Below are positions 6,462 through 34,026 of a DNA stretch of 64,000 nt, in pieces; the first letter of the stretch is position 1, and every line of letters begins with the position of its first letter. A program made the position numbers and the translations under genes. The notes beneath the pieces were generated by a model that saw nothing but the letters and a program-made list of their open reading frames with translations, was not told the DNA's origin and searched no databases. Where the stretch lies: NCBI GenBank assembly GCA_030648295.1, contig JAUSID010000168.1, positions 1 to 64,000 of the forward strand. The letters are read 5' to 3'. Source of the DNA: Opitutaceae bacterium. GTDB lineage: Bacteria; Verrucomicrobiota; Verrucomicrobiia; Opitutales; Opitutaceae.

Positions 6462-6488
6462 CCTGGGAGCGCGGGCCTCTGGCCCGCA
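6462..6488. repeat. Half of a family A repeat
   Basis: cctgggagcgcgggcctctg.. matches one arm of the family A palindrome with a few changes. The opposite arm is absent; instead a short unrelated palindrome (ggcttgccgaacgggcaagcc) follows at about 6510-6530. It sits in the gap between the convergent sulfatase and histidine kinase genes, where it might also act as a weak transcription stop. Confidence 0.6.
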
Positions 6489-6544
6489 ATGATCGAGTGG
6501 CTGCCGAGAGGCTTGCCGAACGGGCAAGCCGCTTCACCTCGGTA

Positions 6545-7645: not shown

Positions 7646-7702
7646 TGGACGCCGGCAACGTAGTGGCCAGAGCGAACGCGTAAAGGGAGATGTGGGCCGC
7701 GT

Positions 7703-16933: not shown

Positions 16934-18907
16934 TTAGGGCACACTCCGGTTGGACGGCCCCGCCGTTGTAGCCGGACGAACCGGCCCGGCTGGCGTTGCG
17001 GCTCCGGCCTCGAAACGCCAGCTCTTGTCCTCGACCCACGCGCAGTGATTGAAATTGCTGATCCACTCGCGCTCGTGCGCGCGCCGAAACGCAATCAGTC
17101 GCGCCAACGCCTCGCGGCCGCGTTCCGGGGTCGAGGTTGGATCGGAAAGCGTCAGCCCTCGCGAAACTTCCGCGCAGAGTCTCGCGTGCATCAAGCCGTT
17201 GCGCAGAAACCGGACGCGGGCCAGCGCTTCGGAATCGGCCCGCACCGCTGCTTCGGCCTTCGCGAGGGTCGCCTCCGCCGCAGCGAAGGAATCCGCCGGA
17301 TAAATGACGTGCGCCGCCAGCGCCCACGCCCGCCAGCGGGAGGTGTTGTCCTCGAACTGCCGGTTGATTTCCTCGCGCCGCTGCGCCGCATATCGCTCCC
17401 AATAATCGAAGTAGGCTTTGACGTGCGGTGCCGCGGCGCCGAATGCGCCAAAATATTCCGCGAGGAGCTCATCGGCGGCCGCCTGCGGTCGCGTGTGCAG
17501 CCGCATCAGCAGATAGAGGTTGGTTCCCTGTGTGGCCCAGTGACCGGTCAGCGCGTCGTAGTCGGTCGCCTCCATCCCGTGCCGCGCCTGATGCTGGAAC
17601 TCGTCCGCAAACTGGTGCGCGAAAACCAGCGGCATGGTGTAACCGTCGAGGCAGTAATTGCCGCGGGAAAACAGCCGCGCACCCGTTTCGTGCCACTGCG
17701 TCCACTGCTGCTTGAACCAGTCGTGCTCCCCGGCCGAACGCGGGAACCAGCCGGCGGAGGGATACGACCCGACGAGGAGGTGCGAATTGAGCATCGTGCC
17801 CGGACTCGGCGGGTGGAAGTAGTTGAAGTAGTTATACACGACCACGGTCGCTTCCGGATCGATCGCCTCGACCTGCCGTTGCACATCGAGCCAGTAGCGC
17901 ACGTAGCGATCGGTCACGAACCGCGAGCCCATCACCTTGGACTTCGGGGGGTAGAACTTGAGGAAGTCCGCGGGCGGCGGCCCGTCCCAGGCGCGGCAGT
18001 TGTCGCACTCGCACAGGCCCATGATCCCGTTCTCGATCGCATTGACGAACCGGTGCCCGCCGCCCGGATCCGCCGCGCGCCGCTCGCGCCAGAGCTCCAC
18101 GATCTTGCGCCGGAATTCCGGATTCGAGACGCACATCGAATAGTTCGCGCCGGGTTTCGGCGGTCCGCGCCTGCCATTCACGAGCTGAAACCATTCGGGG
18201 TGTTCTTCGCCGTATTTCTTCCACCAGTCGGTGAATGCATGGCCGTAGCTCAGCCGCACGTTCTTGCCCATCCGATGCCGTCGGAGGAAGACCGCCTGAT
18301 CATGGGCATATGCCGCCGCGGCCTCCGGCGTGAAACCGAGTTCCGCCCGCTCGCCCTTGAACGTCAGTCCGCCGCGAACGTTCCGTTGAAAAAACGCCGG
18401 CGAGAAAGTCGTATCCGCGTTTCGCGCCCGCACCGTGCGCGTTTTCGGGACAACCGTTCCCAGTTCACCCGGCCAGAGCCAGCGCACGCCCACGTCACGC
18501 TCGAGCCACTCGTAGACGCCAAACAAGGTCCCGCCAAATGTGCCCGGGTCCAACGGATCGCCCGCGGCATCGCCGCCCGCGATCGTAATCGCGGAATCCG
18601 TCATCCGCAGCACACTCGTTTCGGGCGCGAGTCGCGGCACATCGATGCCGGCGGCGCGCGCGGCGCGCGTGTCACCAATATAGATACAGCCGCCGCGCTC
18701 AGGCCGCCCCGCCGACTCGGACAGGATCGCCAGCCGTGCACCGGTGGCTTTCTCGACGTGATAAACGAGTTCCTCCGCCGCGTAGCGTGCAACCGCCGTC
18801 GGCTGATCCGCGATGACGACCACCACGGCCGCCCGGCTATCCTTCACCACGTCGACGTCGGCGCGCGCGGTGATGGCGAGGCATCCGAAGAGGGCGGGGC
18901 GCACCAC
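16934..18907 (-). CDS. DUF4838 protein (second tandem copy)
   Basis: A 657-residue paralogue of the next gene. An N-terminal GH20b-like domain (VARYAAEELVYHVEKATGAR, GTLFGVYEWLERDVGVRWLW) precedes the DUF4838 TIM-barrel-like domain (LSYGHAFTDWWKKYGEEHPE, MCVSNPEF, a CECDNC cysteine cluster, NYFNYFHPP). DUF4838 proteins are common in glycan-utilisation loci and are thought to be glycosidases; biochemical proof is thin. The track ORF (to 19063) begins in a family F repeat: its first ~35 residues are repeat translation. A GTG at 18907 or 18904 just before a short hydrophobic stretch (RPALFGCLAITARA) is a plausible real start, but this is uncertain. It lies downstream of its paralogue and probably belongs to the same transcript. 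Confidence 0.82.
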   Translation of the reverse strand: MVRPALFGCLAITARADVDVVKDSRAAVVVVIADQPTAVARYAAEELVYHVEKATGARLAILSESAGRPERGGCIYIGDTRAARAAGIDVPRLAPETSVLRMTDSAITIAGGDAAGDPLDPGTFGGTLFGVYEWLERDVGVRWLWPGELGTVVPKTRTVRARNADTTFSPAFFQRNVRGGLTFKGERAELGFTPEAAAAYAHDQAVFLRRHRMGKNVRLSYGHAFTDWWKKYGEEHPEWFQLVNGRRGPPKPGANYSMCVSNPEFRRKIVELWRERRAADPGGGHRFVNAIENGIMGLCECDNCRAWDGPPPADFLKFYPPKSKVMGSRFVTDRYVRYWLDVQRQVEAIDPEATVVVYNYFNYFHPPSPGTMLNSHLLVGSYPSAGWFPRSAGEHDWFKQQWTQWHETGARLFSRGNYCLDGYTMPLVFAHQFADEFQHQARHGMEATDYDALTGHWATQGTNLYLLMRLHTRPQAAADELLAEYFGAFGAAAPHVKAYFDYWERYAAQRREEINRQFEDNTSRWRAWALAAHVIYPADSFAAAEATLAKAEAAVRADSEALARVRFLRNGLMHARLCAEVSRGLTLSDPTSTPERGREALARLIAFRRAHEREWISNFNHCAWVEDKSWRFEAGAATPAGPVRPATTAGPSNRSVP

Positions 18908-18957
18908 CCGCGCGAGCTGACGTAGCGATCGAATCTTCGGCTCAGCAACCGTTGAAT

Positions 18958-19032
18958 GGAGCCGCGGCGCCCCCGCCGCGGCCACAAGCACACCGTTATG
19001 CGATCCGACGCGGCGAGGGCGCCGCGTCTCCA
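18958..19032. repeat. Family F repeat (GGAGCCGCGGCGCCCCCGCCGCGGCC)
   Basis: Arms ggagccgcggcgcccccgcc.. at 18958-18983 and gcggcgagggcgccgcgtct.. at 19010-19032 are imperfect reverse complements. They lie between the two DUF4838 genes and run into the open frame of the second one. Fragments of the same family occur near 10376-10392. Confidence 0.7.
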
Positions 19033-19082
19033 ATGAACGACCGGCGTACAAGCTCAACTGCATGCTGCTATGCGAATCCAGC

Positions 19083-21041
19083 TCACGGATAAAAATCCGC
19101 CGGTTGCTTGGTTTCGCTCGCGAGCTTCCAGCTCAAATCCTCGACCCACGCGTTGTGGCCCAGGTTCGCGAACCACTCGCGTTCGTGTTTGCGGCGGAAC
19201 GCCAGCAACTCGGCCAGTTTCCCCTTGCCGCGTTCAACGGTGGACTCCGGATCGGCCAGCGTGAGTTGCTGCGCCACCTCCGCACAGAGCTTCGCGTGGG
19301 CCAGCCCGGTCTGGAGAAACTCCACCCGCGCGGTCGCCTCGGGGTTGCCCCGCGCCGCGGCGGCGGCCTTCGCCAGCAGCGCCTCGCCCGGGCCGAAGGA
19401 CCCGGCCGGGAACACCCGATGCGGCGCCTTTGCCCATGTCCGCCAGCGGATCGCCACGCGATCGTAGAACACATCGTGGATCAGCTTCCGGTTGTCCATG
19501 GTGTAGCTTTCCCAGTAATCGAAATACGCCTTCACTTGCGACGCCGCGGGGCCGAATCCCGCATAGTAGTCCGCCAGCAACGCGCCCGGATTCGCCTGGG
19601 GGGTCACATGCAACCGCATGAGCAGGTAGAGACTCGGTCCCTGGATGGCCCACTGGCCGGTGAGTGAATCGAAATCGGTCGCGACCATCCCGTTCCTCAC
19701 CCCGTTCTGAAAATCGTCGGCAAACTGGTGCGCGAAGACGAACGGCATGCTGTAGGCGTCGAGGAAGTAGTTTGGCCGGAAAAAGAGGCGCGCCCCGGTT
19801 TTCCGCCAGTCCGCCCACTGCCGCTTGTACCACTCGTGCTCGTCGTCTTTCCGCGGATACCACCCCGCCGACGGGCAGAATCCGAGCAGGATGTTCTCGT
19901 TCAGCTTCACGCCCGAGGTCGGCGCCTGGAAATAGTTGAAGTACACATAACCCACGACCACGACGTTCGGGTTCTCCTTCGCCGCCAGCTGCTGGATCGC
20001 GAGGGCGAAGCGGGCGTAGCGATCAGAGACGAACCGCGTGCCGTAGACCTTGAAGTTCGGCGCGTAGTACTTCATCGCGTCCGGCGGCGTCGGGCCGTCC
20101 CACGCCTGGCACTTTTCGCATTCGCACTGGCCGACGATGTCGTTCTCGACCGCGTTGATGAAGCTCGGCCCCGACGTGCGCTTCGCCCCGCCCTTGTCCC
20201 GCCACAGCTTCACGATCTGCTGGTGCAGGCCGGGGTTCGAGACGCACATCGCGTAGCGCGCTCCCGGCTTCTCCGGCCCGCGCTTGCCCTTGTAGAGCTG
20301 AAACCAGTCCGAGTGCTCCTTGCCGTATTTTTCCCACCAGTCGGTAAACGCGTGGCCGTAGCTCATCTTCTCGCTGCGGCCCATCCGTTGCCGGCGCAGG
20401 AAGACGGTCTGCACCGCGGCGTATTCCTCCGCCGCCTTGGACGTGAATCCGAGGGCCGGATTTCCACTCGTGAATCCGAGCCCCGTCCGGACGTGCCGCT
20501 GGAACAGCTGTGGTGTCACGGTGAGGTCGATCGCGCGCAACGCGATCGTCCGCGTTTTCGGCACATGCGTGCCCAGTTCGCCCGGCCAGAGCCAGCGCAC
20601 ACCCAGCTCCCGCTCCAGCCATTCGTAAACGCCAAACAGCGTGCCGGCCGAGGTGTCACGGTCGAGCGGGTCGCGGTCCTCGTCCTTGCCGACGATGTAC
20701 AGCGCCTTCGCCGTCGCCCGAAGCTGGAATGTCTCGGCGGGCAGCGCTGAAATGTTGATCCCGGTATCGCGCGCCGCGTAGGTGTCGCCGAGGTAGATCG
20801 CCGTGTCGGGCGTCGAATCACACTCGCAAACGATCGGGAGCTTGGCCCCCGTCGCCTTCTCGACGTGATAGACCAGTTCCTCCGCCGCGTACTGAACGAC
20901 GCGAGTTGACTTCTCCGGCAGAACAATTGCCGCCGTGGGCCGGCCGTCCTGCACGATGAACGCGGAGCCGGTGGCGGCGACCGCAGTGGGAGAGAGCAGA
21001 GCCGACGCGAGCAGCGCGGCGCCAAGGAGACGGGCGCTCAC
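19083..21041 (-). CDS. DUF4838 protein (first tandem copy)
   Basis: A 652-residue exported protein. The start is the GTG ending at 21041: it overlaps the TGA of the receptor gene (GTGA) and begins a good signal peptide (ARLLGAALLASALLSPTAVA); the longer track ORF reads antiparallel shadow sequence. Domains: a GH20b-like N-terminal domain (YAAEELVYHVEKATGAKLPI), the linker GTLFGVYEWLERELGVRWLW, then DUF4838 with LSYGHAFTDWWEKYGKEHSD, ARYAMCVSNPG, the CECEKC cysteine motif and YVYFNYFQAP. The role is probably glycan binding or hydrolysis in the periplasm on what the receptor imports. Tight coupling to the TonB receptor is the strongest clue to function. The catalytic residues of the family are not securely known. 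Confidence 0.85.
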   Translation of the reverse strand: MSARLLGAALLASALLSPTAVAATGSAFIVQDGRPTAAIVLPEKSTRVVQYAAEELVYHVEKATGAKLPIVCECDSTPDTAIYLGDTYAARDTGINISALPAETFQLRATAKALYIVGKDEDRDPLDRDTSAGTLFGVYEWLERELGVRWLWPGELGTHVPKTRTIALRAIDLTVTPQLFQRHVRTGLGFTSGNPALGFTSKAAEEYAAVQTVFLRRQRMGRSEKMSYGHAFTDWWEKYGKEHSDWFQLYKGKRGPEKPGARYAMCVSNPGLHQQIVKLWRDKGGAKRTSGPSFINAVENDIVGQCECEKCQAWDGPTPPDAMKYYAPNFKVYGTRFVSDRYARFALAIQQLAAKENPNVVVVGYVYFNYFQAPTSGVKLNENILLGFCPSAGWYPRKDDEHEWYKRQWADWRKTGARLFFRPNYFLDAYSMPFVFAHQFADDFQNGVRNGMVATDFDSLTGQWAIQGPSLYLLMRLHVTPQANPGALLADYYAGFGPAASQVKAYFDYWESYTMDNRKLIHDVFYDRVAIRWRTWAKAPHRVFPAGSFGPGEALLAKAAAAARGNPEATARVEFLQTGLAHAKLCAEVAQQLTLADPESTVERGKGKLAELLAFRRKHEREWFANLGHNAWVEDLSWKLASETKQPADFYP

Positions 21042-24000
21042 AGGTCGAACGTGGCCGTGAGGATGAACTGACGCGGGTCGACGATCCGGTAGGCGTTTGG
21101 CGTGCCATCCGGGAACGCGCTCACTGGCTGCAGCCGGCCGCCTTCCTGGATGTTCCGGACATTCAGCTGCACGGTCATGCCCACCTTGTCCGACCAAATC
21201 TTTGTCCGATACGCCGCCAGGAGATCGAAGTAGAACCGGCCCTTGTCGTAAATCGGCCGGTTGCGATCCAGATTGGTGATGATTGCCGGCAGGCTCTGGA
21301 GCCCGTAGTAGCCGATGGAGCCCTTATCCTCCCAACGGACGGCGCCGCCGACATTGAAGTTGCGCAGAATCCGATGCTCGGTGATTCCGCGCAGACGAAA
21401 GTTCGTCGACACGTTGGCGCGATATTTACGCACCTGTGGCAGGCTCTTGCCCACGGTCTGCTGCGCAATCGCCAGCGGGCTGTTCACATTGCCCGGCAGA
21501 TATCTGTCCGGCGTCTGGACGCCGGCATAACTGGTGGTGTACCAGGGCTGGCCCGTCTCCTTGTCGATGAGACTCTGCCAGACCGGCATCCGCTCGTTCA
21601 AATAATCGAGCAAATCCTGCGCGATCGCGGCCTGGATGGTCTCGCTCTCGGTCACGTTGCCCTTGATCGTCCAGTAATTCGTCGGGTTGTAGTAGATCTC
21701 GATTTCCTTGCCTTTGCTGAGCGCGTCCTGGCCCTGCGAAATCGGCAATCCGCCAAAGTTCACGCTGGTCTGAAGCATCTCGAGCACCTGCGGATCCATC
21801 TGCATTTCGCGCGCCACGGCGGCATCGAGTGCGGCACCCGTGAGATTGGGCTGCGTCGCCTGCAGCCACTGCCGCGTGCGCACATCGAGGGCGAAGCTGC
21901 GCGAGTTGTTGCCGTCGAAGACGTCCATTTTCACGCTGCGGGTGGCCAGCGTCGACGAGGTGCCGCTGCGATCGTTCGTGGTCCGCGTGATGAACTGATT
22001 GGCGCGCAGCATGAGTTTGCCGTTGAAGAGATTCAGGCTGAATCCCCAGTCCTCGCCCCTGCCCTGCGGATTCGGCAGCAGCTTTCCGTGCAGGTTGATC
22101 GCCGGATTGGCCGGGATGAAGCTGTCGGACTTGTTCGCATGCCCGCTGAGCCACGGCGTAATCTTCAACACCGCACCCGCCGTCTTCGTCTCGCCTTCGT
22201 TGAACTTGTAGTCGCCCTCCGCCCACTGCTGGTCCCATTCGTAATTGTGCGACATCGCGTCCGGCATCAACTGCGCCGCGATGCCCGCCTTGGTGTAAAC
22301 GCGATCCTTGCGCAGGCCCAGCGTCGTCACCAACCGGTCTTTCAAAAGGTGGCTCTGCCAGACGATGCCCTGGGTCTTCTGGATCTTGAGCGAGTTTTGC
22401 GACCCCGCCGTGCCGTTGGCCGAGGCGGCGAGACCCAGCTGCGTCGGTTCGTTGTTGACCCTTCCCGCGGCAAAATTGCCCCACGTGTAGTTGTGGGTGC
22501 CCGCGACCGAGCCGGTAAAGGGCGCGTGATCCACATTGAACCCCTGGTTGTCGCCCACGAGGTAGAAGCGGTAACTGCGCGAGCCGGTGGGCGACGCTCC
22601 GTCCTGCGGCAGGGTGTCGCCGGGCAGCCGCGAACTGGTGGCGCGCGGCGTGCCCGCCGGCAGCCACGGATGGTCATCGAGCATCGCCAGCTGATAGTAG
22701 AACGCCCGGGACTGGTTGTGCTTATACTCACCGTATCCACTGAACTGGTGCAGCCCGAGCCAGCGCATCCAGCCGTTCTCCTGCCGGAGATCGAGCTTGT
22801 AGGCGAGTTGCGTGCGATAGGTGTCGTTCGTCAGCGGCCGGTCGATCACGTTCGTCTCCGTCATCCCAAAATAGGGTCTCAGGAAAAACGGGTTGGGCGA
22901 CCCGTCGAGCCGTCGCATGTTGGGATCGACGTAGAGGTACGTGGAGCCCGAGCTGCCGGTGGGATAGTCGCGGAACAGCTTGGGCGAGTCCTCGCGGAAC
23001 CAGCCCAGCTGCGCCGCCAGCAGCTGACGCGGCGTATTGAAGAAGAGATGATCAACCGTGACCAGGGAGGTGCCGGTGACCTCGTCGAAGTTGTTCATCG
23101 AGGCGGAATTGATCGTGGACCAATCGTAAAGCGACTTGCTGCTCACCGCGCCGTCGGACGTCCACAGCGGCTGCGTGCGGCGAAGCGTCTGCGGATTCAG
23201 GAGCATGTAATTGTTTCCCGTCTGGTTGTTGCTCGCCGTGGTCGTCAACAACGCGTCCTGCGTCGTTGTGCCGCGCGGCGCGGTCCAGTAGCTCACGCCA
23301 TTCGAGTCGATGTACAACAGCGAGGTGCCGCGGCCGGTGGTCTGGAACGCACTGTTGAACACCGCCGCGCCCGCGTTGATTTGCGGCACGCCGGCGCCGA
23401 GCGTCGACACGGGCTGACCATTGCGATTGACCGGCGAGCCGTTGATGTAGGCCGTGTTCGTCACCGGATCCCAGGTCGGCGCACCCACGGCCACCCACTG
23501 GCTGACGCCGTCGCGCGGCGTGATGCTGTTCGGCCGGCGGCCGTATTGATGGAAATACTGGTAGCTCGCGGAGATGCTGGTCGAGGGGAACGGCCGGTAT
23601 TTGACCATGCCATTGTAGCGCTCGGCCTTCACGCCTGACGGCTGCCGGTTGTATTCCGTCCTTTGGAAAACCTGGCTCAGCCGGATGGCGAGCTTGTCCT
23701 TCAGGAGGACGCGATTGGCGTCGAGGCTTTGGCGATACCCGGCCTCCCCATCGAGCCGGCCAAACAATTCCGCGCGGAGCTGAAGCTCCGTCCGGTTGCG
23801 ACTCAGGTTCGCTGAGGACGGCACGCTGTTGGCGGTGCCGGAGGCGTTGCCGAGCCCGAAAAGATTCGAGTTTGGGCCGCGGCTGATCTCGACCGCATCA
23901 GAGTTGATTGGATCCAGGGGCACCCGGCGGCTGGTTTCGAAGCCGCCGTAGGCGACATTGGCGCTCGTCAGCCCGCGGACACGATTCGCGGTGTTCGGGT

Positions 24001-24532
24001 TGTCCGCGAGATTGTCGCTCGGCTGGAAACTCTGGTTGAACGCGAAGTCGGTATAGTTGCCGGAGCCCTCGGTGCTCGCCTCGTACGCGAAGATGTCGTT
24101 GATATCGAGCATCGCGAAGTCCGCCATCTGCTCCTTCGTCACGACCGTGATCGACGACCCGAGGTCCTCGATCTTCGAGTTGATGCGCGTGCCCGACATC
24201 GTGTTGGCGCCATAGTAGCCGCGGTTGTCGTCGACGACTTCGAACGGCGACATGGTGACCAACTCACCGGAAGTTTCCGGGCGGACCGCGACCGCGGCCC
24301 TGGCATCGTCCGCCTGCTTGGCGGACAACTCTTCGGGGTCGAGCCGGCCATTGCCATTGCGATCGTATTTCGCGAGGTCACCCGGCGAGGGAGTGGCGGC
24401 CTGTACCCACGACGTCGCCGCCAGCGCGAGGGAAAGTGACCCACAGAGAATCGCCTCCCGGGTCCGGGACCGATGACGACGGCTCCGCTGCGGAGTGGAG
24501 GCGGTGGCTTGAATGTTGTTCTCGGGTTTCAT
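21038..24532 (-). CDS. TonB-dependent outer-membrane receptor with an N-terminal EF-hand
   Basis: A 1164-residue receptor. After a signal region (ILCGSLSLALAATSWVQA) comes a canonical EF-hand loop, DRNGNGRLDPEE (residues 57-68). The segment VTMSPFEVVDDNRGYYGANT contains the SPFEV stretch typical of Opitutaceae receptors and may serve as TonB box. The plug follows (TRINSKIEDLGSSITVVTKE, RVRGLTSANVAYGGFETSR, VEISRGPNSNLFGLGNASGT), then a barrel of about 900 residues ending in the C-terminal strand FILTATFDL. It imports an oligosaccharide across the outer membrane. It is preceded by a deoR gene on the same strand (38-base gap) and followed by DUF4838 genes with a 4-base overlap, so the three form one unit. 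Confidence 0.93.
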   Translation of the reverse strand: MKPENNIQATASTPQRSRRHRSRTREAILCGSLSLALAATSWVQAATPSPGDLAKYDRNGNGRLDPEELSAKQADDARAAVAVRPETSGELVTMSPFEVVDDNRGYYGANTMSGTRINSKIEDLGSSITVVTKEQMADFAMLDINDIFAYEASTEGSGNYTDFAFNQSFQPSDNLADNPNTANRVRGLTSANVAYGGFETSRRVPLDPINSDAVEISRGPNSNLFGLGNASGTANSVPSSANLSRNRTELQLRAELFGRLDGEAGYRQSLDANRVLLKDKLAIRLSQVFQRTEYNRQPSGVKAERYNGMVKYRPFPSTSISASYQYFHQYGRRPNSITPRDGVSQWVAVGAPTWDPVTNTAYINGSPVNRNGQPVSTLGAGVPQINAGAAVFNSAFQTTGRGTSLLYIDSNGVSYWTAPRGTTTQDALLTTTASNNQTGNNYMLLNPQTLRRTQPLWTSDGAVSSKSLYDWSTINSASMNNFDEVTGTSLVTVDHLFFNTPRQLLAAQLGWFREDSPKLFRDYPTGSSGSTYLYVDPNMRRLDGSPNPFFLRPYFGMTETNVIDRPLTNDTYRTQLAYKLDLRQENGWMRWLGLHQFSGYGEYKHNQSRAFYYQLAMLDDHPWLPAGTPRATSSRLPGDTLPQDGASPTGSRSYRFYLVGDNQGFNVDHAPFTGSVAGTHNYTWGNFAAGRVNNEPTQLGLAASANGTAGSQNSLKIQKTQGIVWQSHLLKDRLVTTLGLRKDRVYTKAGIAAQLMPDAMSHNYEWDQQWAEGDYKFNEGETKTAGAVLKITPWLSGHANKSDSFIPANPAINLHGKLLPNPQGRGEDWGFSLNLFNGKLMLRANQFITRTTNDRSGTSSTLATRSVKMDVFDGNNSRSFALDVRTRQWLQATQPNLTGAALDAAVAREMQMDPQVLEMLQTSVNFGGLPISQGQDALSKGKEIEIYYNPTNYWTIKGNVTESETIQAAIAQDLLDYLNERMPVWQSLIDKETGQPWYTTSYAGVQTPDRYLPGNVNSPLAIAQQTVGKSLPQVRKYRANVSTNFRLRGITEHRILRNFNVGGAVRWEDKGSIGYYGLQSLPAIITNLDRNRPIYDKGRFYFDLLAAYRTKIWSDKVGMTVQLNVRNIQEGGRLQPVSAFPDGTPNAYRIVDPRQFILTATFDL

Positions 24533-24570: not shown

Positions 24571-25359
24571 TCATCCCCCGAGGGGGAAAACGGTGAGAAT
24601 CTTCGGGCCGAGACGGCCGAATTGTTTCAACAGGCCGGCGGGCGCGCCGGCATCGGTGATGAAGATGTCGACGTCCGCGAGGGTGCCGGAGCGGGCCAGT
24701 TCCGTCCGGCCGATCTTGGTGTGATCGCAAAGGATGCAGGAGCGATTCGCGATCCGCCGCATCGTCCTGTCGACGCGCGCGAGCCGAAGGTCGGAATTGT
24801 AGATCGCGCCGTCGGTGCCGATCGCGTCGGCCCCCTGAAATGCGATGTCGGCGGAAAACATCTCCAGGCAGTGCTCCGTGACCGGCCCGGTCAGATCCGG
24901 GCTGCCTTCCCGGATGATCCCGCCCAGCAGGATCACCTCAACGTCGGTCGCGTGCTGAAGCTCGGAAGCGACCGCCAGGCTGGGAGTGATGACCGTGAGA
25001 TTCTCGCCGTCCTTCAGCAATGAGGCCAGCTCCAGCGTCGTCGTGCCATTGTCCAGGATCAACCGCTGCCCCGGGCGCACGAGTTTGCGCGCTTCGGCGG
25101 CGATGGCGCATTTCTCCGCGCGGTTCCGCTCGCGACGTTCGCGGTAATCGAACTCGAACATCATCCGCTCCGTCAGCACGGCGCCGCCATGCGTGCGCTG
25201 GATCTGCGACTTGCCTTCGAGCACATCGAGATCGCGCCGGATTGTCATCTCGCTTACCGCGAACTCGCGCGCGAGCTCGACAATTGAAACTCCCGGCTGC
25301 CCCGCAAATCGGTCCCGGATGACCGACTGCCGGACCGCAGAGGGGAGCTTTTTCACCAT
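24571..25359 (-). CDS. DeoR-family transcriptional regulator
   Basis: A 262-residue repressor-type regulator. The N-terminal winged helix (VSIVELAREFAVSEMTIRRD, then THGGAVLTER) matches the DeoR family. The C-terminal DeoRC sugar-phosphate sensor has LDNGTTTLELA (phosphate-binding loop), ILLGGIIREGSPDLTGP, GADAIGTDGAIYNSD and CDHTKIGRTELAR. Such proteins normally respond to a phosphorylated sugar and release their operators, and the adjacent FGGY kinase could make that effector. A 39-bp motif lies just upstream of this gene (25390-25428) and again in the divergent ceramidase/aminotransferase intergenic region, which suggests autoregulation and control of both arms of the locus. Confidence 0.93.
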   Translation of the reverse strand: MVKKLPSAVRQSVIRDRFAGQPGVSIVELAREFAVSEMTIRRDLDVLEGKSQIQRTHGGAVLTERMMFEFDYRERRERNRAEKCAIAAEARKLVRPGQRLILDNGTTTLELASLLKDGENLTVITPSLAVASELQHATDVEVILLGGIIREGSPDLTGPVTEHCLEMFSADIAFQGADAIGTDGAIYNSDLRLARVDRTMRRIANRSCILCDHTKIGRTELARSGTLADVDIFITDAGAPAGLLKQFGRLGPKILTVFPLGG

Positions 25360-25389
25360 GATTTGGCCGTTGTCCCCTTCGTGTTATGA

Positions 25390-25428
25390 AATGTCAAGTT
25401 GTTACCTATTCTCACGTGAACGAACATT
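25390..25428 (+). promoter_or_regulatory. Candidate DeoR operator, copy 1 (AATGTCAAG-N12-CTCAC-N8-ACATT)
   Basis: aATGTCAAG, twelve bases, CTCAC, eight bases and ACATT occur here on the plus strand, 30 bases before the deoR start. The same blocks with identical spacing occur at 28211-28249 on the minus strand. The outer pentamers AATGT and ACATT are reverse complements, and on the other strand the element begins aatgttcgttcac, resembling the ATGTTCG half-site of GlpR-type DeoR regulators. It also contains TTGACA on the minus strand, which may be the -35 box of deoR. The element sits in an AT-rich island in otherwise GC-rich DNA. Confidence 0.55.
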
Positions 25429-25455: not shown

Positions 25456-26799
25456 TCACCGCCCCGGCGGCGGGCCAAAACGTTGATGAAGCCGGACCAT
25501 TGCCCGAGCGGCCGCGTCAATGGTCGGATGAACGCCCGCGGCCGCCGCGGCGAACACCGCCGCCCCGAGGCACGCGCGTTCCGGCGAGGTCGACGTGACG
25601 ATGGGCGTCCCCATGACGTCCGCGGTGAGCGCGAGCCACGCCGCGTTGCGCGCGCCGCCGCCCGTTGCCGCAATGGTACGCGGCAACTGGCCGCGTGAAA
25701 TCCGGGACACGAGTTCGCGCTGGGCGAACGCCATTCGCTCCAGCAATGACCGCACGGCAGCTCCCTGTTGACCGGCAGCGGTGGCGGAGTCTGGCGCGGC
25801 GGCGGCCGTAGACCCGGCGGGCACTGTCGCCGCCTCGGCGATCAACTGGTCAATTGTCCGGCCTGGCGCAAAACGCCGCTGGTATTCCTCCAGCGCGCCC
25901 GCCCCATTGGGATTGAACGCGAGCCGATAGAATCGCCGCCCATCGAAATGGGGACCGTGAAAACATCCTGCGAGGTGCTCCACGCGGTCCACGAGGCACG
26001 TGGCCGCGAGCACGGTCCCGATCGAGATGCTCACATCGGCGAAAACATCCAGTCCCGCACCGATCGCCGCCGCATGATGATCCAGCGCGCCAACGGCGAA
26101 TGGAATTCCAGCCGGCACGCCGAGCAGCCGCGCGGCCTCGCTGCGCGTCCGACCGCACGGAGTTCCCGGCGGCAACGGCCTCGCCAGTCGTCCCGCCTCG
26201 ATCCCAAACCCGGTGAGCGCTTCATCCCACCACCGGCGGTCGTGGAGGTGGTAAAGCCCCAAGAGCGCCGCCGTGCTGGCGTCGCCCACCCGCTCGCCCG
26301 TCAGCGCATGGGTGAAATAATCCGAAATGGTCAGGACGCACTGCGCGCGGGCCCACTGCTCGCGCTCGTGGATCCTCCACCAATGCCATTTTGTTACCGC
26401 GGATTCCGCCGCCACCGTATTGAATCCGACCGCACGCGAAAACGCCGCCGAATTGGAGAACGCCAGATGCTCCGGCGCCGGCGCGGCCCGGGTGTCCGTC
26501 CAGAGAATCAGCGGTGACAGCGGCAGGTCGCCACGATCCAGCAGGATAAACGTATTGGCCTGGGACGAATAAGACATCCCGGCGATGTCCCGCGGTTCCG
26601 CGCCCGCTCGCGTCAACGCCTCCGAAAACGCGCGCCGCAGCAAGGCCCAGAATGTTTCGGCCCCAAGTTCGCTGCGACCAGGCGCGGGCGCGGAGGCTTC
26701 GACCGCCACCCGCCCGAGCCCGCGCAACGTTCCGTTTTCCTCGAAGAGGCCGACCTTGAAATACGACGTGCCAAGATCGACGCCGAGCAACAAGCGCAT
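25456..26799 (-). CDS. FGGY-family carbohydrate kinase
   Basis: A 447-residue sugar kinase, cytosolic. MRLLLGVDLGTSYFKVGLFE is the N-terminal phosphate-1 motif; IPFAVGALDHHAAAIGAGLD and IAATGGGARNAAWLALTADV are the C-terminal adenosine and phosphate-2 motifs. The FGGY family phosphorylates pentoses, polyols, xylulose or rhamnulose, and the substrate cannot be read from the sequence. I start at the ATG ending at 26799 instead of 26916, because the motif begins immediately and the gene then starts 10 bases after the stop of the ceramidase-like gene, an operon spacing. Its product is a likely effector for the DeoR regulator downstream. Confidence 0.9.
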   Translation of the reverse strand: MRLLLGVDLGTSYFKVGLFEENGTLRGLGRVAVEASAPAPGRSELGAETFWALLRRAFSEALTRAGAEPRDIAGMSYSSQANTFILLDRGDLPLSPLILWTDTRAAPAPEHLAFSNSAAFSRAVGFNTVAAESAVTKWHWWRIHEREQWARAQCVLTISDYFTHALTGERVGDASTAALLGLYHLHDRRWWDEALTGFGIEAGRLARPLPPGTPCGRTRSEAARLLGVPAGIPFAVGALDHHAAAIGAGLDVFADVSISIGTVLAATCLVDRVEHLAGCFHGPHFDGRRFYRLAFNPNGAGALEEYQRRFAPGRTIDQLIAEAATVPAGSTAAAAPDSATAAGQQGAAVRSLLERMAFAQRELVSRISRGQLPRTIAATGGGARNAAWLALTADVMGTPIVTSTSPERACLGAAVFAAAAAGVHPTIDAAARAMVRLHQRFGPPPGR

Positions 26800-26809: not shown

Positions 26810-28150
26810 TTAAGCGCCGCGTGCGAGCAGCGCGAGCGTCGCCTCGACGAAGCGGTTTCCATTTTCCGGCGCGAACACCGCATTGAGCGCCTCATATCGT
26901 CGCTGCGCCGCGGCATCGGGCGTGACGATGTAGCCCTGGAGTTCGCCGTTCGCCAGCGTGATCAGGTGGGTGCGCGGCGAGCGTGCCTTGAGCGCGAGAG
27001 CATACTCCACGAAAAACTCGCCGGGCCAGCCGACGAACGTCCACGGCCCGATCCGAATCGCCTGGATCTCCGCGGGCGTTCGCGCCGCCAGCGCCGCTTT
27101 CAACCGGCCGTCGGCGGCGGCGCGCGCTAGCTCCGCGGTCTCCTCGGCCCCGAAAACATCACACTCGGCGGTGCGCACGGCGGGCGCAGCCGCACCTTCC
27201 GCCTTGAGCTCCCTGAAGCGCGCGCGCGCCCCGGCGAGCACGCGTTCGGCATCGCCGGGGCCGGGGAACGCGCGCGGCTCGAGTTCGACCCAGCCCTGCC
27301 GCGCGTCCACGCGCGCCTCCGTCGTGAACGAAATCGTCGCGATCGCCGACGCGATCGAGCGGCCGAGGTTTTCCCCGAGCCGTTGCGCCTCCGCCAGCGT
27401 GTTGCCGCGCGTGAAATGCCGCGGGCTCTGGTTTCCCGAAGCGCCGTTGTGATAGAGGATCGGGCAGCCGGCCGGCAGCGCGCCGCGCCGGAGGAAGCTG
27501 CGGGTGAAATGCGGAAAGTCGCCGCTGATCACGGTCGAGTCTTCATGCAGCACCGTCGGATGCATCGCATACACGACCATGCAGCCGAGCGGCTGCCGCG
27601 TCTTCACGCTGCGCGCGACGAGCACGGGAACCTCCGGATCGGCCGGGCCGCGCGGATCATGCCGGTTGGAACCGACGCCTTCCGCACGCGCAACCGCCAG
27701 TCCCACCTCCGCCGGTTCCGCCGCGGTGACCGCGCGGCTCGCCGTCTGCACGATGAGGTCGAGCAGCCGGGCGGCGTATTCGAAATCCGGTTTCGGCACG
27801 ACGGGATCGGCGGCGTTGCCGATCTGGTCCACCAGGACCGGGCCGGAGTGCGTGTGCGTGGCGCTCAGCAGAATGGCGTCCTCACGCACTCCCGTCTTCA
27901 CGGCGATTCGCCGCCGCGCTTCGAGCACCAGCTCGCGCGGCACGAATATCAGATCGTGGGCGAGGAAAAGCGCGGACGCCTCGCCGTCGCTGACGAACAG
28001 CGCCGTGCACTCGAGCGGATCGTGGACGCCCGTGCTGTTGCGCGGCACGTGCGGGTAGCCGAAGAGGAAAACCGATCCCGCCGGTGTGATGTCGGCGGTG
28101 GCTGCGCCCGCAACGAGCCCGGCGCGCGCGGAATCATGGGAGGAACTCAT
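26810..28150 (-). CDS. Neutral/alkaline ceramidase-like N-terminal-domain protein
   Basis: A 446-residue protein resembling the catalytic N-terminal domain of neutral/alkaline non-lysosomal ceramidases. It shows the start GAATADITPAGSVFLFGYP, ILLSATHTHSGP (zinc ligands in THTH), VVYAMHPTVLHEDSTVISGDFPHF and YHNGASGNQSP (the Asn/Gly-Ser-rich nucleophile loop, here ASGNQSP). No signal peptide is seen, and the immunoglobulin-like C-terminal domain of true ceramidases is absent. In bacteria of this group such stand-alone domains occur in sugar loci, and an amide hydrolase role is a reasonable inference. It is the first gene of the minus-strand unit, with the kinase starting 10 bases after its stop. 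Confidence 0.8.
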   Translation of the reverse strand: MSSSHDSARAGLVAGAATADITPAGSVFLFGYPHVPRNSTGVHDPLECTALFVSDGEASALFLAHDLIFVPRELVLEARRRIAVKTGVREDAILLSATHTHSGPVLVDQIGNAADPVVPKPDFEYAARLLDLIVQTASRAVTAAEPAEVGLAVARAEGVGSNRHDPRGPADPEVPVLVARSVKTRQPLGCMVVYAMHPTVLHEDSTVISGDFPHFTRSFLRRGALPAGCPILYHNGASGNQSPRHFTRGNTLAEAQRLGENLGRSIASAIATISFTTEARVDARQGWVELEPRAFPGPGDAERVLAGARARFRELKAEGAAAPAVRTAECDVFGAEETAELARAAADGRLKAALAARTPAEIQAIRIGPWTFVGWPGEFFVEYALALKARSPRTHLITLANGELQGYIVTPDAAAQRRYEALNAVFAPENGNRFVEATLALLARGA

Positions 28151-28210: not shown

Positions 28211-28249
28211 AATGTTATTTTTTGTGAGAGTGTGTGGTTTCTTGACATT
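28211..28249 (-). promoter_or_regulatory. Candidate DeoR operator, copy 2
   Basis: Read on the minus strand: aATGTCAAG, twelve bases, CTCAC, eight bases, ACATT, the same blocks and spacing as upstream of deoR. It lies in the 196-base divergent region between the ceramidase-like gene (start 28150) and the class III aminotransferase gene (start 28347), in a rare AT-rich stretch. On the plus strand it ends in cTTGACAt, a perfect -35 hexamer for the aminotransferase operon, although no good -10 follows at 17 bases (aaactg). Confidence 0.55.
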
Positions 28250-28346
28250 GGGTCACACGTTTTGAAACTGCGCGGGTCGTGATCATTCCTTCTTCGCGGC
28301 CCAATTTCATCGTCGCCCACCGGCGCGGTGCCGATCGCAACCTCGC

Positions 28347-29744
28347 ATGTCGCTGATCCCCCCCCCCAACGTCGACGCGTTTTCCACGCTCGAATGGGGC
28401 CGCGTCGATCTCTCCCGCGTGCCCCACGTGCCGGTGCCGCCGCCCGGCCCGCTTTCGCGCGACCAGCACGCGCGCTGCACGCGCTACTTCAAGGGACTGA
28501 GCACCCAGGTGAAGCTGTTTCCCGTCGCCTTCGAGTCCGGCGCCGGCTGTGTCTTGCGCGACGTCGACGGCAACGAATACATCGATTTCTCCTCCGGGAT
28601 TTACGTGACCACCCTCGGCCATTGTCACCCGAAGATCAGCGAGGCGATTGCCCGGTCGGCGTCGCAGTTGATGAACGCACACGACTTCACCACGCCGATC
28701 AAGACGCGGCTGATGGAGAAACTCGCGGAGGTGCTGCCGGGCGACCTGACGGGATACCAGCTCTACGACTCCGGCACGACCGCGGTCGAAGCTGGCCTTC
28801 GCGTGCTTCGCGCCGCGACCGGAAAGCACGAGACCGTGAGTTGCTTCAACGACTATCACGGCAAGACCTACGGCGCGGTGTCGCTCGGCCACATCCGCTC
28901 GCACGTTTACGGCGCGGTGCGTGGCCCCGGCTCGCACATGGTGCCGCGGCCCGACCCGTATCGGCCGATGTGGACGAAGCCCGACGGGTCGATCGACACC
29001 GATCAGTACCTCAGCTTCTACGGCCAGTATCTCGACAAAGGCACGGTTGGCAGCGTCGCCGGTTTCGTGCTCGAGCCGATTCAGGGCTGGGGCGGCTCGG
29101 TCATGCCGCCGGACGATTTCTTCCCGAAGTTGCGTCGCTTCTGCGATGCGCGAAAAATCCTCCTCATGGCCGACGAGGTGCTCACGGGCTGGGGCCGCAC
29201 CGGCAAATGGCTGTGCCTCGAGCACTGGGGCGTCGTTCCCGACGTGGTCACGATCGGCAAGGGCTTCGGTAATGGGTTTCCGGTGACGTGCGTCGCGGTG
29301 CGGGAGCCGTTCAAGGAGAGTTTCGAGTCGATTTCCGCCTCCAGCAGCTACGGCGGCAATCCGATGGCCTGCGCCGCCGCACTCGCCGCCACGGAGGTCA
29401 TCGAGGACGAAGGATTGCTGGCCCATGCCGAGACGCTGGGCGAGATCGCGTTGCGCCGGATGCAGAAGATTCGCGACGCCCACAAGATCGTGGGCGACGT
29501 TCGCGCCAAGGGCTGCCTCATGGGCATAGAACTGGTCAAGGATCGCACCACGAAGGAACCGTTCGATCATGCCGGCACGCTCGTGTACCAGAAAGCCTTC
29601 CGGAAGGGCCTCGCCTGGATTCCCGCCGGCCACATCCTGCGGATGAGCCCGCCGATCGTGATGGATGAGGATACGCTGCTGAAGGGACTCGACCTCATCG
29701 AGGAAGCGATTGGCGAAACCGCGCGCGAGCTCGGCTACAGCTGA
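28347..29744 (+). CDS. Class III PLP-dependent aminotransferase
   Basis: A 465-residue cytosolic enzyme of the omega-aminotransferase/GABA aminotransferase group. Seen are YIDFSSGIYVTTLGHCHPKI, YDSGTTAVEAGLRVLRAATG (PLP phosphate loop), LLMADEVLTGWGRTGKW (PLP-binding Asp) and VTIGKGFGNGFPVT with the Schiff-base Lys. The length is normal. It should move the amino group of an amine, amino acid or amino sugar to a keto acid. As first gene of the plus-strand arm of the locus, before a NagB-like protein and an amidohydrolase, it points to a nitrogen-containing sugar or its amide as substrate. The candidate operator lies 98 bases upstream of the start. Confidence 0.92.
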   Translation: MSLIPPPNVDAFSTLEWGRVDLSRVPHVPVPPPGPLSRDQHARCTRYFKGLSTQVKLFPVAFESGAGCVLRDVDGNEYIDFSSGIYVTTLGHCHPKISEAIARSASQLMNAHDFTTPIKTRLMEKLAEVLPGDLTGYQLYDSGTTAVEAGLRVLRAATGKHETVSCFNDYHGKTYGAVSLGHIRSHVYGAVRGPGSHMVPRPDPYRPMWTKPDGSIDTDQYLSFYGQYLDKGTVGSVAGFVLEPIQGWGGSVMPPDDFFPKLRRFCDARKILLMADEVLTGWGRTGKWLCLEHWGVVPDVVTIGKGFGNGFPVTCVAVREPFKESFESISASSSYGGNPMACAAALAATEVIEDEGLLAHAETLGEIALRRMQKIRDAHKIVGDVRAKGCLMGIELVKDRTTKEPFDHAGTLVYQKAFRKGLAWIPAGHILRMSPPIVMDEDTLLKGLDLIEEAIGETARELGYS

Positions 29745-29778
29745 TGGATTCGATGCGCACCTGGAGGCTGGATCGAAC

Positions 29779-29978
29779 GTGGCACGGGCGTCTCCCTCGA
29801 CAGGCTCGGGACCCTGAGCTTGCCGAACGGGCCGCCCGTGTTGTTGCGTGGCACGGGCGTCTCGCCCGTGTTTTGGCGGCGCTCCGCGCCGCCCATGGGC
29901 GAGACGCCCATGTCACCTCAATCCCACGGGCGAGACGCCCGTGCCACCACTGATCATGGGCGGAACGCCCGTGCCACC
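29779..29978. repeat. Family D repeat cluster (GTGGCACGGGCGTCTCGCCCGTG)
   Basis: Several arms in both orientations (cgtggcacgggcgtctcgcc, cgggcgagacgcccgtgcca, gggcggaacgcccgtgccac) fill the 248-base gap between the aminotransferase and NagB-like genes. The block 29786-29831 is identical over 46 bases, inverted, to 13378-13423. The cluster ends about 15 bases before the NagB-like start codon. Confidence 0.9.
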
Positions 29979-29992
29979 TTCAGGATCGCATC

Positions 29993-30940
29993 ATGAAAAA
30001 ACAGCCCGCCCGGTTCACGTATGCGCCCGCGGAATTCATCCCGTTCCGCGATCGGACGGTGATTGAACGCATCCGGAAGATCAAAAAGGAAGACATCACG
30101 AAGCACTGGAATCCGGCGTTCAAGATCACCGTCATCCCGGATGCCGACGTGGAATTTCTCTGGATGACGGAGATGTTCTCGCGGATCAAAACCGCGATGG
30201 AAGCCGGCCAGCCGCTCGTGATGATCATGCCGAACCCGTGGCCGAACTACCGGCGGCTCGCGTTCCTGATTAACAAGTTTCGCGTGAACTGCCGGCGGCT
30301 GTACACGTTCAATATGGACGAGTACGCGAACGAGAAGGGCGAGATTGCGCCCGAGACCTGGGAGTTCGGGTTCATGCACGCGTTCAAGAAATACTTCTGG
30401 TCGCAGATCGATCCGAAGCTGCGGCCGCCGGAAAAAAACATCCAGGGGCCGACCGACCGGAACATCAGGGACTACGGCCGGATGATCGCGGACCGCGGCG
30501 GCGCCGACGTGTGTTACAGCGGCCCGGGCTGGGCCGGCCACCTCGCCTTCATCGATCCCAACGCGCCAGAGTTCGCGGCCGCCACGCTCGAGGAGTGGAA
30601 GCAAATGGGTCCGCGCGTGTGCACGCTGCACCCGCTGACCATCGCGCAAAATTCGCTCCACGGCAGCTTCGGCATGAGCGGAGATCTCGCCGCCGTCCCG
30701 CCCAAGGCGGCGACGATCGGTCCCGCCGAGGTGATCGCGACGAAGCATCGCCTCGACATTCACGCGATCACGATCGACGGCTCCTTTGCGTCCTGGCAGC
30801 GGTTCACGACCCGTCTCGCCCTGCACGGGCCGGTCACGCCGCTCGTGCCGCAATCGATCCTTCAGACGCTCCGTACCGACGTCTGGGTTTCGGAATCCAT
30901 CGCCGAGAACATCGAACCGCGCTGGGACAAGGGCTATTGA
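29993..30940 (+). CDS. NagB-like (glucosamine-6-phosphate deaminase family) protein
   Basis: A 315-residue protein of the NagB/RpiA-like sugar isomerase fold. LYTFNMDEYANEKG corresponds to the NagB 'NMDEYVG' block with the catalytic Asp (Asp72 of E. coli NagB). GGADVCYSGPGWAGHLAFID corresponds to 'GGVGNDGHIAFNEP': the active-site His is kept, but the preceding Asp (Asp141 in E. coli) is Ala and the following Glu (148) is Asp. The C-terminal TIGPAEV replaces TVGVGT. It is about 50 residues longer than E. coli NagB. The substitutions suggest a related but different isomerase or deaminase reaction. It follows the aminotransferase, and its stop overlaps the amidohydrolase start. Confidence 0.85.
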   Translation: MKKQPARFTYAPAEFIPFRDRTVIERIRKIKKEDITKHWNPAFKITVIPDADVEFLWMTEMFSRIKTAMEAGQPLVMIMPNPWPNYRRLAFLINKFRVNCRRLYTFNMDEYANEKGEIAPETWEFGFMHAFKKYFWSQIDPKLRPPEKNIQGPTDRNIRDYGRMIADRGGADVCYSGPGWAGHLAFIDPNAPEFAAATLEEWKQMGPRVCTLHPLTIAQNSLHGSFGMSGDLAAVPPKAATIGPAEVIATKHRLDIHAITIDGSFASWQRFTTRLALHGPVTPLVPQSILQTLRTDVWVSESIAENIEPRWDKGY

Positions 30941-31935
30941 GCGACGCCCCGCGATCCGCCGTGCTCATCGACGTTCACAATCATCTCGGCGCGGACCTCT
31001 TCTTCTATCTCAACGGTTTCTATCCCTATGCGCAGGATTTGCCGGCGCTGGTGACCGAGGGTCGCCGGCACGGGATCGATCGCTGGGTGGTGTTCCCGAT
31101 GGTGGCGAATGCGTGGTTCGATCCCGCGGCGATGCGACGCGGCCAGCTTGTCCCCGGCGGACCCGAAAAGGTGCCCTACGCCTTCGAGAATGAGCGGATG
31201 CTCCGCGAAATCTACGAACAGTTTCCGGACTTCGGCCGGTTGACGCTGCCGTTCGTCATGTTCGACCCGATGCGCGAACCGGCGGCGCAGGTCGAGCGGC
31301 TCCGCGAACTGTACTGCGAGTTCCCGTTCCATGGGCTGAAACTCCAGGCGACGATGATCCAGTCCGACGCCGGTGCGCTGCTCGGCGCCGGCCGCTGCCT
31401 GCTCGAACTCGCCGCGGAACTGGATCTGCCGCTCCTGATCCACTCGAGCGTGGCGGCCAACGATCCCTGGTCCGCAGCCGGCCTGCTGCTGCGCATCGCG
31501 ACGTCGGCGCCGCACCTGCGCTTCTGCCTCGCCCACAGCTGCCGGTTCGATCGCGAATACCTCGATCGCGTGGCGGAGCTGCCAAACACCTGGTTCGATT
31601 GCTCCGCGCACCGGATCCACTGCGAGGGCGCGGTGCGCGGGATGCCGTTCATCGCCGCGCCGGCCCGGCGCTTCGCCGCCGATTATCGCGACCCGACCGC
31701 GGTGCTCCGCGCGCTCGCCGCGACGTATCCAGAAAAACTGATCTGGGGATCGGACACCCCGTTCCAGAGTTTCGTCGCGAAGGAGCCCGAGGGGCTCGTT
31801 TCGCTCCGCAGCACCTACGCGGAGGAGATTGGCTGTCTCCGCGCGCTGCCGCCGCCGGTGCAGGCCGCCATCGCGCACGACAACACCCTCGCCTTTCTGC
31901 GGCTAAAAGATCCCGCGATCCTGTCGCGCGACTGA
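30937..31935 (+). CDS. Amidohydrolase family 2 (TIM-barrel metal-dependent hydrolase)
   Basis: A 332-residue protein of the amidohydrolase_2 group. DVHNHLG at the N-terminus supplies the first metal ligands; LPLLIHSS, FCLAHSCRFD and LIWGSDTPFQ are the further His and Asp ligand blocks. It should act on an amide, lactone or decarboxylation substrate in the cytosol. I use the TTG at 30937, which overlaps the TGA of the NagB-like gene (TTGA) after an AAGGG; the GTG at 30961 (VLIDVHNHLG) is equally possible. The much longer track ORF (from 30511) overlaps the NagB-like gene in another frame and is not real. It sits 60 bases before the transporter gene. Confidence 0.85.
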   Translation: MSDAPRSAVLIDVHNHLGADLFFYLNGFYPYAQDLPALVTEGRRHGIDRWVVFPMVANAWFDPAAMRRGQLVPGGPEKVPYAFENERMLREIYEQFPDFGRLTLPFVMFDPMREPAAQVERLRELYCEFPFHGLKLQATMIQSDAGALLGAGRCLLELAAELDLPLLIHSSVAANDPWSAAGLLLRIATSAPHLRFCLAHSCRFDREYLDRVAELPNTWFDCSAHRIHCEGAVRGMPFIAAPARRFAADYRDPTAVLRALAATYPEKLIWGSDTPFQSFVAKEPEGLVSLRSTYAEEIGCLRALPPPVQAAIAHDNTLAFLRLKDPAILSRD

Positions 31936-31995: not shown

Positions 31996-34026
31996 ATGCC
32001 CAGCCTTCATCCTCTCGATTACGTCATCCTCGCGGCCTACTTCGTTGTCCTGATTGTCCTCGGCAAGGTTTCGGCCAAGCACGCGAAGACCGGCGAAGGT
32101 TTTTTCCTCGCCGGCCGCAAGCTCGGCAAGCTCTACCAGTTCTTCCTCAACTTCGGAAACTCCGTCGCCGCCGCCGACACCGTCAGCACGTCGAGCCTCG
32201 TCTACCAGCACGGCGTCTCCGGCGTGTGGGTCGGGTTCCAGATGATTTTCCTGAACCCGTATTACTGGTTCATGTTTCCGTGGTATCGGCGCGTGCGACT
32301 GACGACGATGGCCGATATCTTCCAGGATCGGCTCGGCAGCCGCCCGCTCGCGCTTTTCTATGCCAGTTTCCAGATCGTCATGGCGGTGGCGGTCTCCATG
32401 GCCTTCGGCAACCTGGTCTCGTACAAAATCTCCGCCGCCCTGGTGACGAAACCCGAGGCCACGTGGACCCAGGGCGAAGCGCAGTCCGTCAGCGGTTATC
32501 GCGAACTCACCCGCCTCGAGAACACGAGGCGCGAGCGGCCGTTGTCGGAACCGGAACAGGGCACGCTCGGCTCCCTGCGCGAGCGGCACACGCGCGGCGA
32601 GTTGAACAACTACGTCACCGCCCTCGAACCGTGGTCCTTCTACATCGTCTACACCCTCGCGGTCGGAATCTACATCGTGCTGGGCGGCATGACTGCAACC
32701 GCGCTCAACGAGTCTTTTCAAGGTGTGTTGATCCTCGTGTTCTCGGTCATCCTGATCCCGGCGGGACTGGCTGCGATTGGCGGCTGGCACCAGCTCGGTG
32801 CGACACTGCCCGACGCGAAACTCAATCTGTTCGGCGCGACCGGCGTGTCGGACTTCACCGGCTGGACGATCGCCGCCGTGTTCTTCGCCACGATTCTCCA
32901 GGCGCACGCGATGCCGCACAACATGAGCATCGCCAGCTCGGCCCGAAACGAATTCGCCGCGCGGTTCGGTGCGGTGGCCGGCACTTTCGGCAAGCGGATC
33001 GTCACGATCATGTGGGCGTTCTGCGGGCTGATCGCGATCGTGATGTTCTCCGGCCCGAACACGCTCGCCGATCCCGACACGGTCTGGGGCACGATGTCCC
33101 GGCAGCTGCTCGGGCCGGGGATGCTCGGCTTGATGCTCGCCGGCGTGCTCGCGGCCAACATGTCGACCGTCGCGGCGCAGGCCATGGCGGTGTCGGCGCT
33201 CTTCGCGCGCAACGTCTACGCGAGCTTCCGCCGCGATGCGACCGATGAAGACGTAGTGCGCGCCGGCCGCCGCACGCTTGTCGTCGTCCTCATCCTCGGC
33301 GTGCTCGTCGCGACCAAGCTTTCCGATGTCTACACCGTCCTCCAGTTCGCGATGACAATCAACGTGCCCTTCGGCGCGTCGATTCTGCTGATGTTCACCT
33401 GGCGCCGCCTCACCGCGCCCGCGGTGTGGACCGCCGTGATCGGCTCCGCCCTGCTCAACATCGTGTTTCCGCTCGTCGCCCAGAATATCCCGGCCCTGCG
33501 CGATCATCCCGCGCTGACGGTGCGCGCGACAGACGCGAACGGACGGCCGCTCGCAGTTTATTTCGAGTCGGTCATCCGCTCCGACTCCAGCAACCCGAAC
33601 AGCCCGCTCCAGGGCCGCGGCCGGCTGCATACCGAATTGCTCGTGCTGCGCGCGGTCGGGGTCGACGTCGCGGGCTTTTCGCCCGGCGGCCGTCTCGCCG
33701 GCCGGTTCCTCGTCGATGCGCTCGTGCCGCTCGTCCTTCTCTTTGGCGTCAGCCTGGTGACACGTGCGCCCGATCGCCGGCTCGTCGAGCAGTTCTACGG
33801 CAAAATGAAAACGCCGGTGGCACCGACGCCCGAACAGGATGTAATCGCAGTGGAGGAAACGCGACGCGACCCCGGCCGTTTCGATCATCAGAAGCTCCGC
33901 CCGAAATCATCGTGGGAGTTCACGCGATGGGACGCCACCGACACGATTGGTTTCGCGGTCAGCTGCCTCGTGACTCTCGTGATCATCGGTGCCTTTCTCG
34001 GTCTGCTGCAACTGGTCCGGATTTGA
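31996..34026 (+). CDS. Solute:sodium symporter (SSS family) with two extra soluble segments
   Basis: A 676-residue inner-membrane transporter of the SLC5/SSS fold. FFLAGRKLGKLYQFFLNFGN with VAAADTVSTSSLVYQ is the Na/substrate site of TM1-2. Further membrane spans continue to IGFAVSCLVTLVIIGAFLGL. Two regions are unusual: a charged segment of about 60 residues (151-209) between early spans, and a segment of ~70 residues (about 500-570) between late spans that contains YFESVIRSDSSNPNSPLQGR. Typical SSS members have ~500-550 residues. It is probably the importer for the monosaccharide released by the locus. It lies in the plus-strand operon after the amidohydrolase and before a large secreted protein. 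Confidence 0.88.
   Translation: MPSLHPLDYVILAAYFVVLIVLGKVSAKHAKTGEGFFLAGRKLGKLYQFFLNFGNSVAAADTVSTSSLVYQHGVSGVWVGFQMIFLNPYYWFMFPWYRRVRLTTMADIFQDRLGSRPLALFYASFQIVMAVAVSMAFGNLVSYKISAALVTKPEATWTQGEAQSVSGYRELTRLENTRRERPLSEPEQGTLGSLRERHTRGELNNYVTALEPWSFYIVYTLAVGIYIVLGGMTATALNESFQGVLILVFSVILIPAGLAAIGGWHQLGATLPDAKLNLFGATGVSDFTGWTIAAVFFATILQAHAMPHNMSIASSARNEFAARFGAVAGTFGKRIVTIMWAFCGLIAIVMFSGPNTLADPDTVWGTMSRQLLGPGMLGLMLAGVLAANMSTVAAQAMAVSALFARNVYASFRRDATDEDVVRAGRRTLVVVLILGVLVATKLSDVYTVLQFAMTINVPFGASILLMFTWRRLTAPAVWTAVIGSALLNIVFPLVAQNIPALRDHPALTVRATDANGRPLAVYFESVIRSDSSNPNSPLQGRGRLHTELLVLRAVGVDVAGFSPGGRLAGRFLVDALVPLVLLFGVSLVTRAPDRRLVEQFYGKMKTPVAPTPEQDVIAVEETRRDPGRFDHQKLRPKSSWEFTRWDATDTIGFAVSCLVTLVIIGAFLGLLQLVRI

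Follow-up and report, generated by a model that had tools for sequence, protein, structure and literature searches.

We found that a spaced motif occurring twice in a 64,000-nucleotide stretch of an Opitutaceae genome (the window, as the whole stretch analysed is called here) belongs to a 49-bp, two-fold symmetric element. On sequence comparison its two copies are, with a probability of roughly 0.9, operators of the DeoR-family repressor encoded beside the first of them. We favour this reading because of the symmetry of the element, its conservation, its uniqueness in the genome, and its co-occurrence and joint movement with deoR and the target promoters. The result is a predicted, precise operator for a regulator from a phylum in which few transcription factors have been studied. 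One regulon would then comprise a ceramidase-like enzyme, a kinase, an aminotransferase, a NagB-like enzyme and transport genes, a grouping that narrows the possible substrates to amino-sugar-like compounds. The conserved motif also offers a means of locating the same pathway in other Verrucomicrobiota and planctomycetes.

The repeated element and its architecture

A pattern scan of the whole window located AATGTCAAG-N12-CTCAC-N8-ACATT with no mismatches at 25390-25428 (plus strand) and 28211-28249 (minus strand). Allowing up to three mismatches revealed no further copy in the window, and the pattern did not occur in 100 dinucleotide shuffles. The two copies have 26 of 39 bases in common and a G+C content of ~38%, compared to 65% across the window. 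The first-pass annotation had reported the motif twice with identical spacing, in AT-rich islands and without copies in the other intergenic regions it had read, and its count of 26 common positions was exact on recounting. Its view of the extent and core of the motif had to be revised.

In an ungapped alignment of 18 sites (the two from the window and 16 orthologous ones) conservation spanned positions 1 to 48 of the element, with essentially unconserved flanks. The element is AT-rich and follows the scheme AATGTTA-N5-TGTTC ... TTGACATT-N3-TAACAT, with AATGTTA...TGTTC(G) as the left half and TTGACATT...TAACAT as the right half. Four half-sites were identified at element positions 1-6, 11-16, 34-39 and 44-49. 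They form 10-bp direct repeats within each pair, and the two pairs mirror each other around position 25. The symmetry correlation of 0.66 was reached by none of 5000 column shuffles and by eight of 5000 random column complementations. The 39-bp unit described earlier corresponds to the first three half-sites only; the fourth, at the far end, had been missed (TAACAC / TCACAC in the window, consensus TAACAT). CTCAC (GTGAG on the opposite strand), previously taken as the core, is the form that the inner left half-site takes locally; of its bases, only the G and T at element positions 14-15 are invariant. The proposal of inverted-repeat ends with ATGTTCG half-sites was thus right in spirit and too short in extent, the element being 49 bp with four half-sites.

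Inverted repeats at leader-like positions might instead form a terminator, an attenuator or a riboswitch in RNA. We find this hardly credible, as there was no Rfam match, the site lies upstream of the presumed transcription start, and the arms are interrupted and A/T-rich, in contrast to the G+C-rich stem of a terminator. A direct-repeat period of 10 bp inside each arm is typical of protein-DNA recognition, and by this period both half-sites of a pair would lie on one face of the helix.

The deoR product matched PF08220 (47.8 bits) and PF00455 (153.4 bits), both above the gathering threshold, and has the DeoR-type N-terminal helix-turn-helix and C-terminal DeoRC sensor domain that characterize the family. 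The stop of the kinase gene (25456) and the start of deoR (25359) are 97 bp apart, and copy 1 lies between them; it would therefore serve deoR and the genes after it, not the kinase. The features of the locus are collected in Table 1.

Table 1. Genes and predicted regulatory features of the deoR locus, in window coordinates.
Feature	Position	Strand	Evidence or remark
DeoR/GlpR-type repressor (deoR), 262 aa, proposed binder	24571..25359	-	Pfam HTH_DeoR 1.2e-12, DeoRC 6.5e-45
TonB-dependent receptor, 38 bp behind deoR	21038..24532	-	same order in L031, L050
Two DUF4838 proteins	16934..21197	-	same order in L031, L050
FGGY-family carbohydrate kinase	25456..26799	-	Pfam
Short protein, N-terminal part of neutral ceramidase (cer)	26810..28150	-	10 bp before kinase
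Class III aminotransferase (amt)	28347..29744	+	87 bp behind operator copy 2
NagB-like (glucosamine-6-phosphate deaminase-like) protein	29993..30940	+	TIGR00502 1.3e-11, below cut-off
Amidohydro_2 protein	31093..31935	+	true start may be further upstream
Sodium:solute symporter family transporter	31996..34026	+	Pfam
Predicted operator copy 1 (49 bp), upstream of deoR	25380..25428	-	AATGTTCGTTCACGTGAGAATAGGTAACAACTTGACATTTCATAACACG; relatives-only model, E=1.0e-6 (rough), own genome
Copy 1 half-sites	25423-25428, 25413-25418, 25390-25395, 25380-25385	-	pattern scan and alignment
Predicted operator copy 2 (49 bp), ceramidase-like/aminotransferase divergent gap	28211..28259	+	AATGTTATTTTTTGTGAGAGTGTGTGGTTTCTTGACATTGGGTCACACG; relatives-only model, E=5.3e-5 (rough), own genome
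Copy 2 half-sites	28211-28216, 28221-28226, 28244-28249, 28254-28259	+	pattern scan and alignment
TTGACA in copy 1, inner right half-site, probable -35 hexamer for deoR	25392..25397	-	promoter role inferred
TTGACA in copy 2, inner right half-site, probable -35 hexamer towards aminotransferase	28242..28247	+	promoter role inferred

Distribution of the element in the genome and among relatives

In the 9.1-Mb genome the pattern had only the two known sites at zero mismatches. With up to three mismatches it gave 200 matches, against 62 for a reversed control pattern, which was too loose for a genome search, and a model of the 49-bp element was used instead. This sequence-only profile was made from 15 sites of relatives, with the window's two excluded. 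Applied to the own genome, it returned exactly two matches at E<=10, both of them the reported sites. Many genome-wide copies, or a lack of conservation, had been named beforehand as results that would speak against a DeoR regulon. Neither was seen, as there were two sites only in 9.1 Mb, and among the close relatives that were checked, those retaining the locus have the element and those without the locus do not.

Among 25 relatives, the eight genomes with a deoR orthologue (70-83% identical; seven from the same genus and one from another genus of the family) all matched the profile at E<=8.5e-8, a result that is in-sample, these sites having belonged to the training set. None of the 17 relatives without the orthologue had a match better than E 0.4. 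Most of the relatives come from one genus or family, and the sites are therefore not fully independent. Further orthologues in the same identity range were found in MAGs labelled Opitutus, Lacunisphaera, Pedosphaera and other Verrucomicrobia, as well as one in a planctomycete (53% identical).

The usual gene order in relatives is deoR-aminotransferase divergent from ceramidase-kinase, with a single element between them. In the window, in genome G022 and in the MAG L050, deoR lies beside the TonB/DUF4838 genes and two elements are present, of which the first precedes deoR and the second occupies the amt/cer gap. In G032, from another genus, the cer-kinase operon lies ~14 kb from deoR. In all four rearranged genomes every separated promoter region retains its own element, and the elements stay with the moved promoters of deoR alone, of amt/cer alone and, in another genus, of cer-kinase alone. 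Outside the training set, G022 had a site in its amt/cer gap (L031:10165), G032 had one immediately ahead of cer-kinase (L082:7811; genes 5087-7759), and deoR was preceded by one in two more genera (L083, 5.4e-8; L084, 2e-10). These are placed where the operator hypothesis predicts. The DeoR regulon of kinase, ceramidase-like and aminotransferase genes that had been put forward from the window was thereby supported, the sites following deoR, cer-kinase and amt through the rearrangements.

G022 also carries a second, paralogous deoR (82% identical to that of the window) beside a TonB receptor, with its own element at L032:8252-8298. A weaker operator match (E=5e-4), likewise outside the training set, was seen in G022 at L080:7689-7736 (C22:621688), ~25 kb from deoR. 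It lies between two divergent genes without a Pfam match and overlaps the called start of the minus-strand gene; these genes are a possible extra member of the regulon.

In other Verrucomicrobiota families and one planctomycete, half of the element is present upstream of deoR. Where a distant deoR (44-57% identical) is next to amt, the left half-site pair is kept upstream of it in L085, L086, L087, L089 and L056 (the planctomycete), with a score reached in <=0.3% of shuffles. In L091 a partial element precedes the aminotransferase gene and deoR itself lacks a site, and L088 keeps amt, but its upstream score was no better than that of shuffles. No half-site was found in L090, L092 and L093, where deoR is without amt in the fetched flank. 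The recognition helix SEMTIRRDL (VSEMTIRRDL; SGMT/SDMT variants) is kept in the site-bearing orthologues and differs in distant paralogues (SVST, SIST, SLST). L090 has the SEMT helix and lacks the element.

In the 17 site-free relatives deoR and amt were lost jointly, and therefore co-occurrence alone does not single out DeoR as the binder. The element could accordingly belong to a different regulator, encoded elsewhere and controlling deoR and its neighbours as well, but we consider this improbable. The paralogous deoR of G022 has the element without amt, which indicates that it goes with deoR itself. Half-site and DeoR recognition helix are conserved together as far as other families, and direct repeats with a 10-11 bp period are the published pattern for DeoR-family operators (PMC3870299). 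A global regulator would also need more copies in the own genome than were found. We infer that DeoR is the binder of the element.

Possible promoter overlap and proposed regulation

TTGACA was present in all 18 sites, shifted by 1 bp in one of them. In the orthologues, the distance from it to the start codon of deoR is ~35-39 bases. The inner right half-site therefore probably doubles as a -35 hexamer, and the deoR message may be nearly leaderless. A search for a sigma-70 -10 behind TTGACA gave no convincing hexamer (2-4 of 6 matches), which makes this a weak promoter assignment. The constant TTGACA and the near-constant distance to the deoR start would also fit a block conserved as a promoter only, consisting of TTGACA and AT-rich surroundings with no operator. 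Such a promoter would, however, recur in the genome, whereas just two copies exist, and it would have a proper -10. In addition, the whole element is two-fold symmetric, and AATGTT and the inner GT, which lie far upstream of TTGACA, are among its most conserved bases. Conservation as a promoter only is thus very unlikely, and the reading as DeoR operators is retained below.

In L085, L086 and L087 the half-site pair upstream of deoR is found directly behind TTGACA, at the position of the promoter spacer. This differs from the Opitutaceae arrangement and suggests that the operator shifted relative to the promoter during evolution.

The two copies are predicted to mediate autoregulation of deoR and control of both divergent operons, cer-kinase and aminotransferase. 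With its two face-to-face half-site pairs, the element would fit binding of the repressor as a dimer of dimers. Once bound, the repressor would lie over the -35 region of the deoR promoter at copy 1 and, at copy 2, over that of the promoter directed at the aminotransferase operon; copy 2 is also 60 bp from the start of the ceramidase-like gene, which leads the divergent operon with the kinase. If the protein behaves like other members of its family, a phosphorylated sugar-like intermediate, probably the product of the FGGY kinase, would bind the DeoRC domain, upon which the repressor would be released from the operator. DeoR would presumably act by repression and not by activation.

The TonB-dependent receptor is probably cotranscribed with deoR, with the DUF4838 genes probably on the same transcript, and all of these genes behind deoR are probably under DeoR control. 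Control of nagB and the transporter is presumed from their position behind amt on the same strand, across a 248-bp amt-nagB gap filled with repeats. The assignment of downstream genes to transcripts shared with deoR, amt or cer is likewise presumptive. The amt-nagB gap (29744-29993) is full of palindromic, REP-like repeats (GTGGCACGGGCGTCTCGCCCGTG...), a family with 67 genome matches at <=1 mismatch and none for the reversed control.

The operons of relatives also hold a Gfo/Idh oxidoreductase, a NagA-like amidohydrolase, a symporter and a NanM-like kelch protein, and an amino-sugar-like substrate is therefore likely. One such operon (L035:11548-17602) includes the Gfo/Idh oxidoreductase, the NagA-like amidohydrolase and the NanM-like kelch protein, which the window does not have here; this gene content hints at variants of one amino-sugar pathway. 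We give even odds to an undescribed regulon for amino-sugar or amino-polyol catabolism that occurs in Verrucomicrobiota and in at least one planctomycete, has as its core a class III aminotransferase, a NagB-like protein, a ceramidase-like protein and an FGGY kinase, and is governed by a mirrored operator of four half-sites. Searches of the accessible literature on this locus or regulon found no paper.

Comparison with known DeoR-family systems

The half-site ATGTTCG presumably resembles the half-site of GlpR. Assignment of the repressor as GlpR was rejected, with 117 bits against a cut-off of 331 (NCBIfam PRK10906) and no glycerol or glp genes in the window locus. The N-acetylgalactosamine repressor AgaR was among the best-scoring NCBIfam models, and NagA-like and NagB-like genes occur in the relatives' operons. 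The AgaR score of 169 bits is under the equivalog cut-off of 260, and this identity was rejected as well; the gene content differs, no PTS or tagatose genes being seen in the window locus.

For E. coli GlpR, a DeoR-family repressor, release is triggered by a phosphorylated compound that an FGGY-type kinase forms, similar to what is proposed here, and its glpFK control region also has several operators, one overlapping a promoter hexamer (PMC4117983). DeoR-family members bind DNA as tetramers or larger assemblies (PMC10991401). The predicted operators of DeoR-family RhaR consist of two imperfect direct repeats with a 10-11 bp period near regulator and target promoters, and the 10-bp half-sites in two mirrored pairs correspond to this pattern (PMC3870299). 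Like RhaR, the system described here would be a local sugar-catabolic regulon that includes a kinase and has the regulator gene adjacent or within (PMC3870299). The predicted operator and local regulon are undescribed but conventional, with an architecture that fits a known DeoR-family kind. In comparison to RhaR, the half-site sequence and the gene content differ, and two direct-repeat pairs face each other within one 49-bp element (PMC3870299).
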